Part shown: positions 9,425 through 20,957 of the stretch, in pieces
Position numbering within the stretch: the first letter of the stretch is position 1
Layout of the letters: each line of letters starts with the position of its first letter
IMG/VR virus record: IMGVR_UViG_3300028197_001316
Coordinates: 1-21,861 of that record
DNA: 21,861 nt
Reading direction: 5' to 3' (one strand)
DNA from: a virus
Position numbers and translations under genes: made by a program
Notes under the pieces: model-generated
Databases searched by the model: none
What the model was told of the DNA's origin: nothing
The model's input: the letters and a program-made list of their open reading frames with translations, nothing else

Positions 9425-9457
9425 GATAAATACATATACATAATGATTGCATAAATA
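9425..9457 (+). promoter_or_regulatory. Two late-promoter-like boxes
   Basis: GATAAATA (9425-9432) and CATAAATA (9450-9457) each match seven of eight bases of the T4 late box TATAAATA. The second would start RNA near 9463, just ahead of AAGGA at 9468-9472 and the ATG at 9480. They fit a late, head-associated gene downstream. Confidence 0.5.
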
Positions 9458-9479
9458 TCTTATAATTAAGGAAAAGAAA

Positions 9480-10229
9480 ATGAAAGTATTTGACATATTA
9501 ACTGAAAGTAACAATAAAGTAGACGAAGGTCCTTTACGGTATATAGCTAAGAAGCTAGGTAGTAAATCAGCCGCAACATCTGCAGATATTGATTCTGAAG
9601 TAGGTAGCATGTACAAAGACTACAAAGCATTTTACAAAAATACACCTGATGGCATTGCTACAGCACAAAATTTAGGTCAATTCCTTAAAGGCAAAGGATT
9701 ACCTGGTAACGTTAACAGCTTAATTAAAGGTGTTGCTCCTAGTATGATGCAAAAAACCGCAGGAGCGGCGAAAGCCGGCGCTAAAGGCGCTGTTAAAGGA
9801 GCGAAAGCCGCGGGTAGAGGTGCTAAAAAAGCAGGAGCTGGTGCAGTTAACATGGCTAGAAAAGGCATTGACAAAGTTAAGAACATGGGTGCTAAGCCAG
9901 TTATTGGACAGCAAGGTGAATTCCAGTTTAGTAGTGTTAATGATCTTAGAGATCCAATTTACGAAGGTCTATTTTTTGAAAAAGATGGTGCATTATCAAA
10001 ACGTGTGATTATGAACGTACTTAAAAAAGCTACGCAAGGTGGCTTCCAAGATAAAGTAGCAGGTAGTGATAGTCCGTTTGGTACTAGTAAGTATGGTAAA
10101 TCAAAAATGAATCCTAAGGCCAAGGACGTTATAAGTAAAGCAAAAGCAAAAGCAAGTCCAAACCCAGTGGATCATTCAGCAATAATCAAAACACTTAAAG
10201 CGGCAGGGTATACAGTTACTAAGAATTAA
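9480..10229 (+). CDS. Putative internal head protein with capsid-targeting leader and H1-like segment
   Basis: The ATG at 9480 is chosen over an upstream TTG because AAGGAAAAG sits 5-12 nt before it; this gives 249 residues. The N-terminus MKVFDILTES resembles the short leader that targets T4 internal proteins to the prohead (MKTYQEFIAE from memory) and contains L-T-E followed by S, a fit to the gp21 cleavage rule L/I-x-E. Residues about 92-139 are Ala/Lys/Gly-rich with hardly any acidic residue (AKGAVKGAKAAGRGAKKAGA), like histone H1 tails, and the C-terminal third is again basic. I infer a DNA-binding protein packed in the head and possibly ejected with the genome. A structural or scaffold role is the alternative. 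Its TAA overlaps the gp51 stop on the other strand. Confidence 0.6.
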   Translation: MKVFDILTESNNKVDEGPLRYIAKKLGSKSAATSADIDSEVGSMYKDYKAFYKNTPDGIATAQNLGQFLKGKGLPGNVNSLIKGVAPSMMQKTAGAAKAGAKGAVKGAKAAGRGAKKAGAGAVNMARKGIDKVKNMGAKPVIGQQGEFQFSSVNDLRDPIYEGLFFEKDGALSKRVIMNVLKKATQGGFQDKVAGSDSPFGTSKYGKSKMNPKAKDVISKAKAKASPNPVDHSAIIKTLKAAGYTVTKN

Positions 10230-10456
10230 AGTAACGGCATTTGAGCTTTTTTACTAGCTTCAATATTATCTTCTATAATTTTATTAAAAATTTCCATATC
10301 GTCGATTCCAAGGCTGTAAGCTTCGTGGATAGATAGTCCACCTCTCATATACCAACACATTTTGTATAAGTTGTGTTTAAGTTGCTTAACCTCATTTTCA
10401 AGGACCGTAGCCTCGGCTAGGATTTCGTCGATGGTTAGTGTTACGATCCTGAGCCG
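10226..10456 (-). CDS. 51: gp51-like hub-assembly protein, expressed as a -1 extension of gp26
   Basis: The frame encodes 76 residues after the shift point, RLRIVTLTIDEILAEATV and onward, with the conserved gp51 core LYKMCWYMRGGLSIHEAYSL and a C-terminus AQMPLL. gp51 is the small protein needed to assemble the T4 baseplate hub. No ATG, GTG or TTG occurs in this frame between the upstream TGA and the conserved core. The open frame instead runs back over the last codons of gp26 and crosses the heptamer T-TTT-TTC (10462-10456), which lies exactly in the gp26 frame. A -1 slip there gives a fusion of 297 gp26 residues plus these 76. A rare start codon such as ATC is the alternative. Confidence 0.8.
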   Translation of the reverse strand, partial: RLRIVTLTIDEILAEATVLENEVKQLKHNLYKMCWYMRGGLSIHEAYSLGIDDMEIFNKIIEDNIEASKKAQMPLL

Positions 10457-11346
10457 AAAAAATTTGATTGATCAAACACAATCGGCATTTCGTATTCTGC
10501 AGGCGCTCCTGCTTGAATTTCTTCTTCAGTTGCCTGAATTTTTAAAGGTTGCTGTGTAAACGCTTTAGCCATCATATCAATATGCGACTTAATTTCATTA
10601 AAAGTACTTGCTTCAGCACCTTCGATAAACTCTTTAATGTGCATTTTGTTTACTACAGGTGTTTCTTCGCCTTCAGGTTGAATAGCCATTACACTATCTA
10701 CAACTGTATCGATGTTAATCGAAGTTAATGCTGATAAACTTTCTTGAAACTTCTGTAATTTAGTTTCTTGTTTTACATTATCATCATTGACAACTGCAAA
10801 TATTCTTTGTTCTTCAAACATCTTAGTTGCAACTGTTGTAAATGTTTTGTAAGTTACAGGCTTAATCTGTACTTGAAATCCTTTAATACTAAATGTATCA
10901 ACATATTCTGTTGCAATATATCGATCTAGTATCTGTCTTAAATCCAACACATATGCTTTATCTAAGTCAGTTCCTGGAACTTTGCCACTCATGTCTAATT
11001 TATCACCGTAACTAGCCATTCTGATAGCAATCATAATTGTATCAAGGTCAATTGACGGAGTTTTCCAGGCATCTTTAATATTAGGTATGCAACTTTGAAT
11101 AACATCAACGGTTGCTTGTCCATTTAATAATGCATCTGGCGTTTTGAAAATAATTTCATCCTTTGCTGTCATAGCATATACAGCGTATTCACTATTTTCT
11201 GTTTTTTCCAAAGTACCTTCTGGCCAATATTGGCCATTGCTCGGCAATTGAATATAGATCTTTGGTTGCCTAATGTGTTTTGCTAGTGGGTTTGCCCCTA
11301 ACGGTTGTATAGGCTGTCCTGCGATAGGAGTAGAGTTATCTACCAT
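10441..11346 (-). CDS. 26: gp26-like baseplate hub / T4_baseplate family protein
   Basis: This 301-residue protein contains the typical gp26-family run: KIYIQLPSNGQYWPEGTLE, AVYAMTAKDEIIFKTPDALL, NGQATVDVIQSCIPNIKDAW and LDTIMIAIRMASYG, which I recognise as the T4_baseplate family (T4 gp26, 208 residues). gp26 acts in hub assembly around the tape measure. The ATG is at 11346, 37 nt after a minus-strand late box. The C-terminus is NFFGSGS; the two Phe codons form the slippery heptamer through which translation can enter the gp51 frame. The gene is divergent from the tape measure, whose start is 77 bp away, matching the chaperone/tape-measure pairing of other tailed phages. Confidence 0.85.
   Translation of the reverse strand: MVDNSTPIAGQPIQPLGANPLAKHIRQPKIYIQLPSNGQYWPEGTLEKTENSEYAVYAMTAKDEIIFKTPDALLNGQATVDVIQSCIPNIKDAWKTPSIDLDTIMIAIRMASYGDKLDMSGKVPGTDLDKAYVLDLRQILDRYIATEYVDTFSIKGFQVQIKPVTYKTFTTVATKMFEEQRIFAVVNDDNVKQETKLQKFQESLSALTSINIDTVVDSVMAIQPEGEETPVVNKMHIKEFIEGAEASTFNEIKSHIDMMAKAFTQQPLKIQATEEEIQAGAPAEYEMPIVFDQSNFFGSGS
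10456..10462 (-). promoter_or_regulatory. Putative -1 ribosomal frameshift site (TTTTTTC)
   Basis: Read on the minus strand in the gp26 frame, AAT TTT TTC GGC contains T-TTT-TTC, a heptamer of the X-XXY-YYZ type on which both tRNA-Phe can re-pair after a -1 slip. The gp26 stop follows four codons later. Just downstream CGGCT and GGAT can pair with ATCC and AGCCG (about 10456-10404), a possible stimulatory stem. Confidence 0.75.
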
Positions 11347-11423: not shown

Positions 11424-14018
11424 ATGGCAGTAGTAAAAGTTGATGTACCCGGAATAGGTGAAGTTCTTGCAGAAAATGCGGCAACTGAGAGTACCTTACG
11501 TGAATTAGTACAATTATTAGGCGGTAGTACTGGTAGTACTTCTCAGCAAGGTAATCCTCAAGGCGAAGCAAGTGGCCCAGGTGCTCTTGGCAAAGCGGCT
11601 AAACAAGCCGGGAAGAATGTCAAAAGTATGGGTAACGAAGCTGATACTGCGGCAGACAAACTATCTAAGATAGGACACGGTCTTGGCAATCTAGTTTCGG
11701 CCATTGTTGGCACAGCAGTATCAAGTGTTACTAACTTAGGTAAATTTGCTTTTAGTGCTGGAAATAGTTTATCAGATTTAGCTGGAACAATTCCTTTTGT
11801 TGGCGATGCACTAGCACCTCTTACAGGAATTATTGATAATCAAGTTGATATGTTTAGACAATCATCGAGTGTTGGCGCCAACTTTAATAATAATATGTTT
11901 GACTTAAACAGAGCGGCGGCTTCAGCGGCAACTCCAGTTGGAGAATTTGCGGCACTAGTTGGAGAAAACTCAGCTCAGTTAAAAATGTTTGGTGGCTCAG
12001 TTACTGAAGGTGCTCAGCGTTTTGGAAGACTTAGTAAGCAATTCAGACAAAGTACAGTTGGAATGGATCTCATGGCAATGGGATTTACCACACAAGAACT
12101 TAATGAAGGATTGATACAGTTTAATACAATACAACAAATGGCCGGACGTAGGCAAAGATTATCAGACAGAGAGCTTAGAGAAGGTACTGGTCAGTACTTA
12201 ATGGAACTAGACAAGCTAACAAAAGTTACAGGTATGAGTCGTAAAGAAGCAGAAACGGCAATGCAACAAAATCTTAATGATGTTCGTGTACAAATGGCTA
12301 TAAGCGACATGACAACGAAGCAAGGAACAAACTTTAACAATAACTTAGTTGCGGCAGGTAATGTTAGTGATGAATTTAAAGCGGCTATGATTGATATGGC
12401 TGACGGTGTAGCTAACGATCCGTTTACAAGACAGTTAATGGCTAATAGTGATGTATTCAAAAACTTTGCAGGCGAAATTGAAAATATGAGTCCTGCAGAA
12501 ATGAATAAATTTTTAATGGATGTTGGTGGAGACATAGATAAATTAGGTCAAGGATTAGGAAAAGCTGGTGTACAAGCGGCATTGGTTGCAGGTGGACCAT
12601 TAGCTGATGTTCTTATCGCAGGTGCTCAAACTAGAAAACTTACCGAAGCTCAAAAGGAAACAATAACTGCTGAACAAAAGAAAAGAGATGCATTAACTAC
12701 ATCTTTAGCACAAGCAGGCGAAACTATTAATTCACTTAAAGCAAAATTCCAAGAAGCAATACTTGGAACTACAGGTGCAGACGGTCCATTCCAGAAATTC
12801 TCTGATATGATAGCAAAATATATTCCTAGCTTTGACGAAGCTAATGCAATGTACGATAAATTAGAATCACAATTTGTTAATGATATATTACCGTCATTGA
12901 AAGGGTATTGGGAAAACCTTAAAGAATTTTTTACAAAGATAACCACGCCAGAAGGAAGAGCAGAAATATTTGATAAACTCATCGTCGGCATCAAAGAATG
13001 GATGGGCGGATGGGATTGGGCAAATCTTGCCTCGAAGGCATTACTATTAATTGGTGCTTCAATACTTACAGGTATTGGTGTTATTCCATTAGCAATTATT
13101 GGAGGACTTGTTGCTCTACTTGGTTGGGATAAGATTAGAGATTTCTTTACTGGAATACCTGATGCTTTAGGAGAAACAGTAGGCGGTTGGGCAACTAGCA
13201 TAAAAGAATTTTTTGTTAATCTATGGGACGATACTATAGGATATTTTACCAATATGTCAGGTAGCATCTTAGATGAAATTTCAAGTTGGCCAGGAAAAGT
13301 ATTTGAATGGGCCGCAGGACTTTGGGATAGTCTTTTAGTAACTCTTAATGATTGGTACAATAGTCTTTCAGAAACAATTACAACTGCTTTTGATGATATT
13401 AAAACTTTTGTGTTATCATTATGGGATAGTCTTACAACAACAATTAGTGAAGGATTTAGTAGTATAGTAACAGGTATAAAAGATACCATTAACGGCATAT
13501 GGGATAGTGTTAAAGAATTAGTAACAGGAATTTTTGATGTTGACGCTGTTAAAAATAAAATGTCTGACATGTGGAACGGAGTAACTACTTTCTTTAGTGA
13601 AACGTTTAATTTAAGTTTTGTTACAGATCTTATAAAGAATACATGGAATAATATTAAAAGTGGATTTTCTAACTTGTTTAACTTTGAATTAAAACTACCT
13701 AACTTTAAGTCATTCTTACCTAAATGGTTAGGCGGAGAAGGAAAATCACTTTCAGGATTGTTTAGTTCCTCTAGCGTAACTTCACCGTCATCAACTAGTT
13801 CAATAGCAAGTAACACATCAGACGTCGAATCGACAGGCACTGAAATGGCATCATCAGAGTCAAAACAAATGGCTATACAAGGAGCCGGAACTGATATGGG
13901 AACTGAGCTAAAAGCGTTAAATAGTAATATGAGCCAGTTAGTAGAATTAATGATGGCAAGTAACAAGATTAACAAAAAAGGGTTCAATGACTCAACAGGT
14001 AGTTTAGTTACTGGATAG
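11424..14018 (+). CDS. Tail tape measure protein
   Basis: This 864-residue protein has the features of a tape measure: a Gly/Ala/Ser-rich N-terminal third with hydrophobic stretches (LGNLVSAIVGTAVSSVTNLG), a long helical middle (RQSTVGMDLMAMGFTTQELN and onward), a strong hydrophobic double segment at about 536-572 (LLLIGASILTGIGVIPLAII), and then repeated aromatic units LWDDT, LWDSL, LWDSL, IWDSV, MWNGV, TWNNI. Tape measures set tail length and help the DNA cross the inner membrane. T4 itself uses gp29; this protein is longer. The neighbours fit: gp26/51 divergent upstream and portal gp20 downstream. The ATG at 11424 has no strong ribosome-binding site. The 445-codon antisense frame inside it is a shadow. 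Confidence 0.75.
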   Translation: MAVVKVDVPGIGEVLAENAATESTLRELVQLLGGSTGSTSQQGNPQGEASGPGALGKAAKQAGKNVKSMGNEADTAADKLSKIGHGLGNLVSAIVGTAVSSVTNLGKFAFSAGNSLSDLAGTIPFVGDALAPLTGIIDNQVDMFRQSSSVGANFNNNMFDLNRAAASAATPVGEFAALVGENSAQLKMFGGSVTEGAQRFGRLSKQFRQSTVGMDLMAMGFTTQELNEGLIQFNTIQQMAGRRQRLSDRELREGTGQYLMELDKLTKVTGMSRKEAETAMQQNLNDVRVQMAISDMTTKQGTNFNNNLVAAGNVSDEFKAAMIDMADGVANDPFTRQLMANSDVFKNFAGEIENMSPAEMNKFLMDVGGDIDKLGQGLGKAGVQAALVAGGPLADVLIAGAQTRKLTEAQKETITAEQKKRDALTTSLAQAGETINSLKAKFQEAILGTTGADGPFQKFSDMIAKYIPSFDEANAMYDKLESQFVNDILPSLKGYWENLKEFFTKITTPEGRAEIFDKLIVGIKEWMGGWDWANLASKALLLIGASILTGIGVIPLAIIGGLVALLGWDKIRDFFTGIPDALGETVGGWATSIKEFFVNLWDDTIGYFTNMSGSILDEISSWPGKVFEWAAGLWDSLLVTLNDWYNSLSETITTAFDDIKTFVLSLWDSLTTTISEGFSSIVTGIKDTINGIWDSVKELVTGIFDVDAVKNKMSDMWNGVTTFFSETFNLSFVTDLIKNTWNNIKSGFSNLFNFELKLPNFKSFLPKWLGGEGKSLSGLFSSSSVTSPSSTSSIASNTSDVESTGTEMASSESKQMAIQGAGTDMGTELKALNSNMSQLVELMMASNKINKKGFNDSTGSLVTG

Positions 14019-20729: not shown

Positions 20730-20804
20730 ATATTACGTTCAGGCAACTAGCCCGGAAGTAGCATTAAGCGAAGGAACGCACTTAACTGTAAAAGGGAGAG
20801 TGTA

Positions 20805-20957
20805 ATGAATTACAGAGACTTCGAAGCGGCTCGTAAAAAAATCAAAACACAATTAGCACACAAAGCAATACATCGAAAGCAGATGGAAAGACCACTGTCT
20901 AGACCACGAGCTGAAAAGAACATACTAAGTTCAGACCCAAGACTTCAAAAAATATAA
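20805..20957 (+). CDS. Small basic protein of 50 residues, unknown function
   Basis: ATG at 20805 with GGGAGAG at 20794-20800 opens a 50-codon frame, MNYRDFEAARKKIKTQLAHK, then IHRKQMERPLSRPRAEKN and SSDPRLQKI. It is strongly basic (Lys, Arg, His) and probably helical, so it may bind nucleic acid or a capsid partner. It lies alone between the gp23 terminator and the promoter of the downstream RNA. The good ribosome-binding site supports translation; no homologue is recognised. Confidence 0.6.
   Translation: MNYRDFEAARKKIKTQLAHKAIHRKQMERPLSRPRAEKNILSSDPRLQKI

Follow-up and report, generated by a model that had tools for sequence, protein, structure and literature searches.

In the 21,861-nt stretch of viral DNA analysed here (the window), a gene resembling T4 gene 26 is overlapped at its 3′ end by a conserved reading frame that has no start codon of its own, raising the question of how this frame is expressed and as part of which protein. 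A preliminary description proposed that a programmed -1 frameshift fuses the two, yielding a T4-type counterpart of the G/GT chaperone pair of lambda. G-T frameshifting is conserved in long-tailed phages, and T4 has been named as the exception to this rule (PMC5009743). The comparisons below make it very likely that one gene encodes two tail-assembly chaperones through a -1 frameshift, and they indicate that a conserved frameshift signal is carried by many T4 relatives, including the marine lineage of the window, jumbo phages and cyanophages.

The gp26-like gene and its overlapping frame

The locus contains the following features.

10441 to 11346, minus strand: gp26-like gene of 301 aa, a predicted short tail-assembly chaperone (TAC-N / G-like), from PF12322, phrog_150 and AlphaFold/Foldseek
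10456 to 10462, minus strand: slippery heptamer T_TTT_TTC, in phase in every examined locus of the window, jumbo and cyanophage types
10441 to 10443, minus strand: TAA, zero-frame stop of the gp26-like gene
10226 to 10471, minus strand: -1 frame, the start-less frame first called gp51, a putative C-terminal extension (76 residues after the slip, plus the stop) with conserved FFR...W.MRGG... and a helical model
11424 to 14018, plus strand: tape-measure protein, divergent neighbour (phrog_1272, 1.2e-20; phrog_58, 1.5e-19)

The gp26-like ORF starts with an ATG preceded by AGGAG, and its product matches PF12322 (‘T4_baseplate’; 1.1e-10, 42 bits against a cut-off of 24.5) and phrog_150 (‘baseplate hub’; 3e-13). 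Its AlphaFold model (pLDDT 90) matched T4-type gp26/baseplate hub proteins in Foldseek. The extension is modelled as helices, also at pLDDT 90; Foldseek with this model against the PDB returned nothing significant, as did a PDB sequence search with the gp26 and extension profiles.

In frame 0 the gp26-like gene ends AAT TTT TTC GGC TCA GGA TCG TAA, with four sense codons separating the TTC of the heptamer from the stop. No stop interrupts the -1 frame between 10471 and the TAA at 10228..10226 (minus strand), and the frame contains no ATG, GTG or TTG before an ATG at 10360; this ATG is residue 33 of 76, and starting there would retain just 44 residues of the extension. A -1 slip at the heptamer would join 297 and 76 residues into a 373-aa fusion with the junction ...DQSNFFRLRIV.... 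The preliminary description had therefore read the junction correctly with respect to the in-phase heptamer four codons ahead of the stop, the start-less frame open backwards over the end of gp26, and the exact lengths on either side of the slip. Among window ORFs of at least 150 codons, the gp26-like junction holds the only in-frame T_TTT_TTC. We also considered a tandem second site, A_AAT_TTT, which is present in the window, and set it aside as lineage-limited and lacking conservation. On the plus strand, a convergent ORF with no Pfam or PHROG match (9447-10229) runs at its end into the stop of the -1 frame, the two sharing 10226-10229. Elsewhere in the window, a glutamine riboswitch (Rfam RF01739, 42.3 bits, above the gathering score) lies at 20734-20782 (plus strand), just 5′ of a 50-aa ORF at 20805-20957.

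In the mechanism we propose, most ribosomes would terminate at the gp26 stop and release the 301-aa short form. A minority would pause at an mRNA stem 5 nt past U_UUU_UUC, where the P- and A-site tRNA-Phe would both slip back one base (from UUU-UUC to UUU-UUU), and would continue for 76 residues in the -1 frame to give the 373-aa long form. The occurrence and ratio of slippage, and the role of the products as chaperones, are inferred from sequence.

Conservation of the heptamer and start codons of the -1 frame

Relatives of the locus were collected twice, with gp26 and, separately, with the extension as query. The extension lay in the -1 frame in all 158 loci having both parts. These 158, together with 12 cultured jumbo phages (Atu_ph07, Phosso, PA5oct, 121Q, RaK2, SCTP-2, Vibrio 2.275, CBB, BF, XbC2, GAP32 and Munch) and the cyanophages S-PM2, P-SSM2 and Syn9, make up a first set of 173 loci, which fall into 98 groups at <95% identity and 38 groups at <50%. 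T_TTT_TTC was in phase in 173/173 of them. It was likewise kept in 80/80 gp26 relatives recovered by a scan whose gp26 patterns lay outside the junction, and in 80/80 loci of a cyanophage-type scan; the three sets overlap in part, with some loci recurring between scans, and all scans together comprise 215 distinct 39-nt tails carrying the heptamer. Elsewhere in the same loci, Phe-Phe pairs are encoded by TTT-TTC in 21 of 153 cases (13.7%), and a T precedes in 27%. The codon preceding the site specifies N, S, D, H, Y, A, T or R and always ends in T, showing that it is the base and not the residue that is conserved. Retention of the heptamer in all three sets is not explained by chance, and indicates that the frameshift signal is under strong selection. 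The preliminary description had proposed aligning the junction across relatives, and in that alignment its slippery site proved invariant.

The homopolymer run at the junction could also suggest that RNA polymerase slips on the six T, producing mixed mRNAs and a fusion by transcriptional slippage. Six T is, however, short for bacterial transcriptional slippage, and position 7 of the heptamer was always C and never T in the first set, a pattern that fits re-pairing of tRNA but not slippage of the polymerase. Transcriptional slippage would also leave unexplained both the frame phase and the covarying stem found at ribosomal spacing (see below), and we regard it as extremely unlikely. Programmed -1 ribosomal frameshifting, by comparison, very probably operates at the junction.

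Start codons in the -1 frame were more variable than the heptamer. Between the slip site and 50 nt beyond the gp26 stop, ATG, GTG and TTG are all missing in 38 of the 98 lineages; 22 have an ATG near that stop (between -1 and +20), and the remainder have GTG or TTG only, or a later ATG. The missing start, whose conservation the preliminary description had proposed to check, is thus shared by 38 lineages and not by the 22, with the others carrying GTG/TTG or a later ATG. These starts raise the alternative of a stand-alone small protein, a genuine ‘gp51’, produced from the extension by re-initiation or from a non-canonical start (e.g. ATC) coupled to gp26 termination, with T_TTT_TTC being incidental; the S-PM2 and P-SSM2 records indeed list a separate gp51 whose ATG follows the gp26 stop by a few nt. 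However, the window and 37 other lineages lack ATG, GTG and TTG there, and the FFR.R residues, which are encoded 5′ of those ATGs, are among the most conserved in the -1 frame. T4 gp51 and the S-PM2 fusion are, moreover, long-form proteins and not free tails. A normal gp51 start in relatives, together with absence of a slippery site, had been named in advance as evidence against frameshifting; in the window clade the 22 lineages with an ATG all retain T_TTT_TTC, as do all 98. A separate start is therefore possible in some lineages but does not replace the heptamer, and we consider expression as a separate protein very improbable.

All 14 cultured -1-type records with gene tables examined, namely S-PM2 (L432), P-SSM2 (L433) and the 12 jumbo phages (L163-L167, L169-L175), list the extension as a separate gp51 or hypothetical gene, shorten it or omit it. 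A frameshift or joined gene is marked in none of these tables, and the annotation can be corrected accordingly.

A stem downstream of the heptamer

Stimulators are seemingly lacking for frameshifting in certain tailed phages (PMC5009743). At this locus, a candidate stimulatory stem follows the heptamer.

10451 to 10455, minus strand: spacer GGCTC, 5 nt, from heptamer to stem
10442 to 10450, minus strand: 5′ arm of the stem, AGGATCGTA, extending into the gp26 stop codon (synonymous-codon null, z 3.6, p 0.0066; covariation)
10401 to 10409, minus strand: 3′ arm of the stem, TACGGTCCT (stem search, synonymous-codon null, covariation)

In the window, AGGATCGTA and TACGGTCCT form 9 bp with one G-U pair. 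Across 75 sequences, the 60 nt from 5 nt past the heptamer folded better than their shuffles (mean z -1.95, versus -0.32 for an upstream control), and most sequences formed an uninterrupted stem with a 5′ arm beginning 3-7 nt past the heptamer. Because an RNAalifold consensus recovered just 5 and 8 helix pairs, the named helices were counted directly. Among 35 aligned window-like relatives, which were selected on a protein motif, 85.8% of cells in the helix were paired, compared to 25-54% when slid, and 14 cells carried double changes versus 3.9 after shuffling (0/500). In a second group the 3′ arm lies ~20 nt further downstream and double changes numbered 19 versus 6.2 shuffled (0/500); 86.9% of its cells were paired, a value that leans upward since the group was drawn largely from sequences already seen in that register. 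When codons in the extension were replaced by random synonymous ones, the observed stem exceeded this null by a mean of 2.4 SD over 75 sequences, and by 3.6 SD in the window (p 0.0066). A replicate set of new sequences gave 75% pairing versus 24-49% slid; the sequences throughout are related, so these statistics do not represent independent trials. A third register, AGGATC/GATCCT, was a frequent partner in the new sequences.

The stem first suggested for this locus, CGGCT/AGCCG with GGAT/ATCC, can form and folds well alone. It nevertheless uses the last base of the heptamer, leaving no spacer, and is not the covarying helix, though the related partner AGGATC/GATCCT is used by a minority of relatives. 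Cyanophages have stems of their own, of up to 17 bp, and a long stem is absent or weak in some lineages, e.g. L050, L137, L138, L167 and L183.

The 3′ arm ends near +36-38, +53-56, +66-67 or +73-79, each re-matched over ~6-15 bp. It is probable that, across T4-related phages, the 5′ arm has stayed fixed ~5-6 nt past the slippery site, with its 3′ partner shifting among at least four positions within the extension frame. The stem would then be, as we think likely, a stimulator whose pairing partner is exchanged in the course of evolution, within sequence that belongs to two reading frames, offering a natural series for the study of how frameshift stimulators evolve inside overlapping coding sequence. 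In the searchable literature, with Vladimirov et al. 2022 represented by the papers citing it, we found no report of a covarying stem with a lineage-dependent partner arm.

Upstream of the site, a Shine-Dalgarno-like stimulator was found 4-22 nt 5′ of the heptamer in only 5/98 lineages and was rejected as a general element. Many S-PM2-like cyanophages (L272-L290) carry a Shine-Dalgarno-like GGAGGG ~10 nt 5′ of the heptamer (TTG GAG GGA TTG CAG TCT TTT TTC), a possible additional stimulator acting from upstream in this lineage.

Relation to T4 gp26 and gp51 and to known tail chaperones

We compared the locus with T4 (L162), where both gp26 (208 aa) and gp51 (249 aa) give full-length matches to PF12322, at 215.6 and 177.5 bits, indicating that the two are paralogues; gp51 consists of a gp26-type domain plus a C-terminal tail, ~48 residues more. 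The window protein shares the PF12322 match, but T4 has two duplicated, divergently transcribed genes where the window has one, and the end of T4 gene 26 reads GAG TTC TTT GAG, with no slippery site. Since the T4 proteins are paralogous and gp51 is the longer, ‘gp26 plus gp51 frame’ amounts to a short/long chaperone pair like lambda G/GT, predicted to be encoded by a single gene in the window, whereas T4 uses two.

This comparison also changes the identity first given to the 76-codon frame. T4 gp51 is a 249-aa gp26 paralogue with a C-terminal extension, and the frame can match that extension only, so it is not gp51 itself. The -1 extension of cyanophages matches phrog_150 at positions 227-281 and, like T4 gp51, phrog_634 (‘baseplate hub assembly catalyst’), and an in-silico S-PM2 fusion aligned with phrog_150 colinearly over 5-281 in a single stretch (300 bits). 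In the window clade, a full-length profile comparison with gp51 was colinear (probability 96, E 3e-9); the extension alone was not significant against the gp51 C-terminus (201-249) in hhalign, and that of the window had no PHROG or Pfam match. The extension is thus clearly the counterpart of the gp51 tail in cyanophages, by profile matching, and suggestively so in the window clade. As the extension-only comparison was not significant in the latter, the frame is best named a C-terminal extension in place of the gp51 tail.

A review of the T4 tail lists gp26 and gp51 as hub assembly chaperones; it describes gp51 as an essential protein that is missing from the particle and whose function is unknown, and gp26 as a hub component and also as a chaperone (PMC3004832). 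T4 genes 26 and 51 look like a duplicated, frameshift-free form of the pair, with gene 26 supplying the short form and gene 51 the short-type domain plus C-terminal tail, from which a testable role for gp51 follows.

Lambda gpG/gpGT and P2 E/E′ resemble the predicted window pair in having an N-terminus common to a short and a long protein, a -1 frameshift near the 3′ end and a position beside the tape measure (PMC5009743); the window gene differs in being divergent from the tape measure. As first described, the gp26-like gene does lie beside the tape measure, confirmed by the phrog_1272 and phrog_58 matches of its divergent neighbour, and in Flavobacterium immuto and SP-15 a gp26-type gene lies just upstream of the tape measure. 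Vladimirov, Gautam and Davidson reportedly identified T4-like tail chaperones in 2022. PRFect cites their work for the presence, in some T4-like phages, of both a short gene and a longer fused one, and the phage Adele paper (PMC12846349) cites it on the poly-T slippery signals that the short chaperone genes of T4-like phages contain. The belief in the preliminary description that T4-like phages had no such report was mistaken, going by this credit in the citing papers. As described there, the T4-like poly-T sites (Vladimirov et al. 2022, Virology 566:9-15) and those of Vandenendeviridae/Andersonviridae (phage Adele) share with the window a T-rich -1 site ending a short chaperone gene, the Adele type differing in its motif, GTTTTT (PMC12846349).

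Could frameshifting be real and the long form not a G/GT-type chaperone, but a second hub component with another role? The double description of T4 gp26 would fit this, as would the weak fold match of the gp26-like model to known tail chaperones (Arthrobacter Kitkat, E 0.11 in BFVD; HK97 2OB9, sixth among the PDB structure matches, E 1.9, not significant). Conversely, the listing of both T4 proteins as hub assembly chaperones, the absence of gp51 from the particle, the tape-measure adjacency, and the T4-like tail chaperones that citing papers credit to Vladimirov et al. all argue against a hub component, which we consider unlikely. A G/GT-type role for the pair is likely, in which both forms would bind the tape-measure protein and bring in components of the tube or hub, as would befit a T4-type equivalent of lambda gpG/gpGT. 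The correspondence proposed at the outset is supported by the heptamer conservation, missing start, covarying stem, PF12322 homology and tape-measure adjacency.

In a sister clade related to Microcystis phage Mel-JY01 (L352-L431, L168, L176, L177), the gp26-type gene likewise carries a C-terminal extension encoded in a different frame. The gp26-type genes of this clade end in [TC]TT_TTT_TGG_CCT or close variants, with TTT TAC CCT in two tails, and it is the +1 frame that is open in 59/60 distinct tails, in contrast to the -1 frame of the window. Flavobacterium immuto and RM378 also have their extension in the +1 frame. The sister clade probably uses a programmed +1 or -2 frameshift at this site. 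On balance, we favour a single gene family in which some members use -1 shifting, others +1/-2 shifting, and T4 gene duplication instead.
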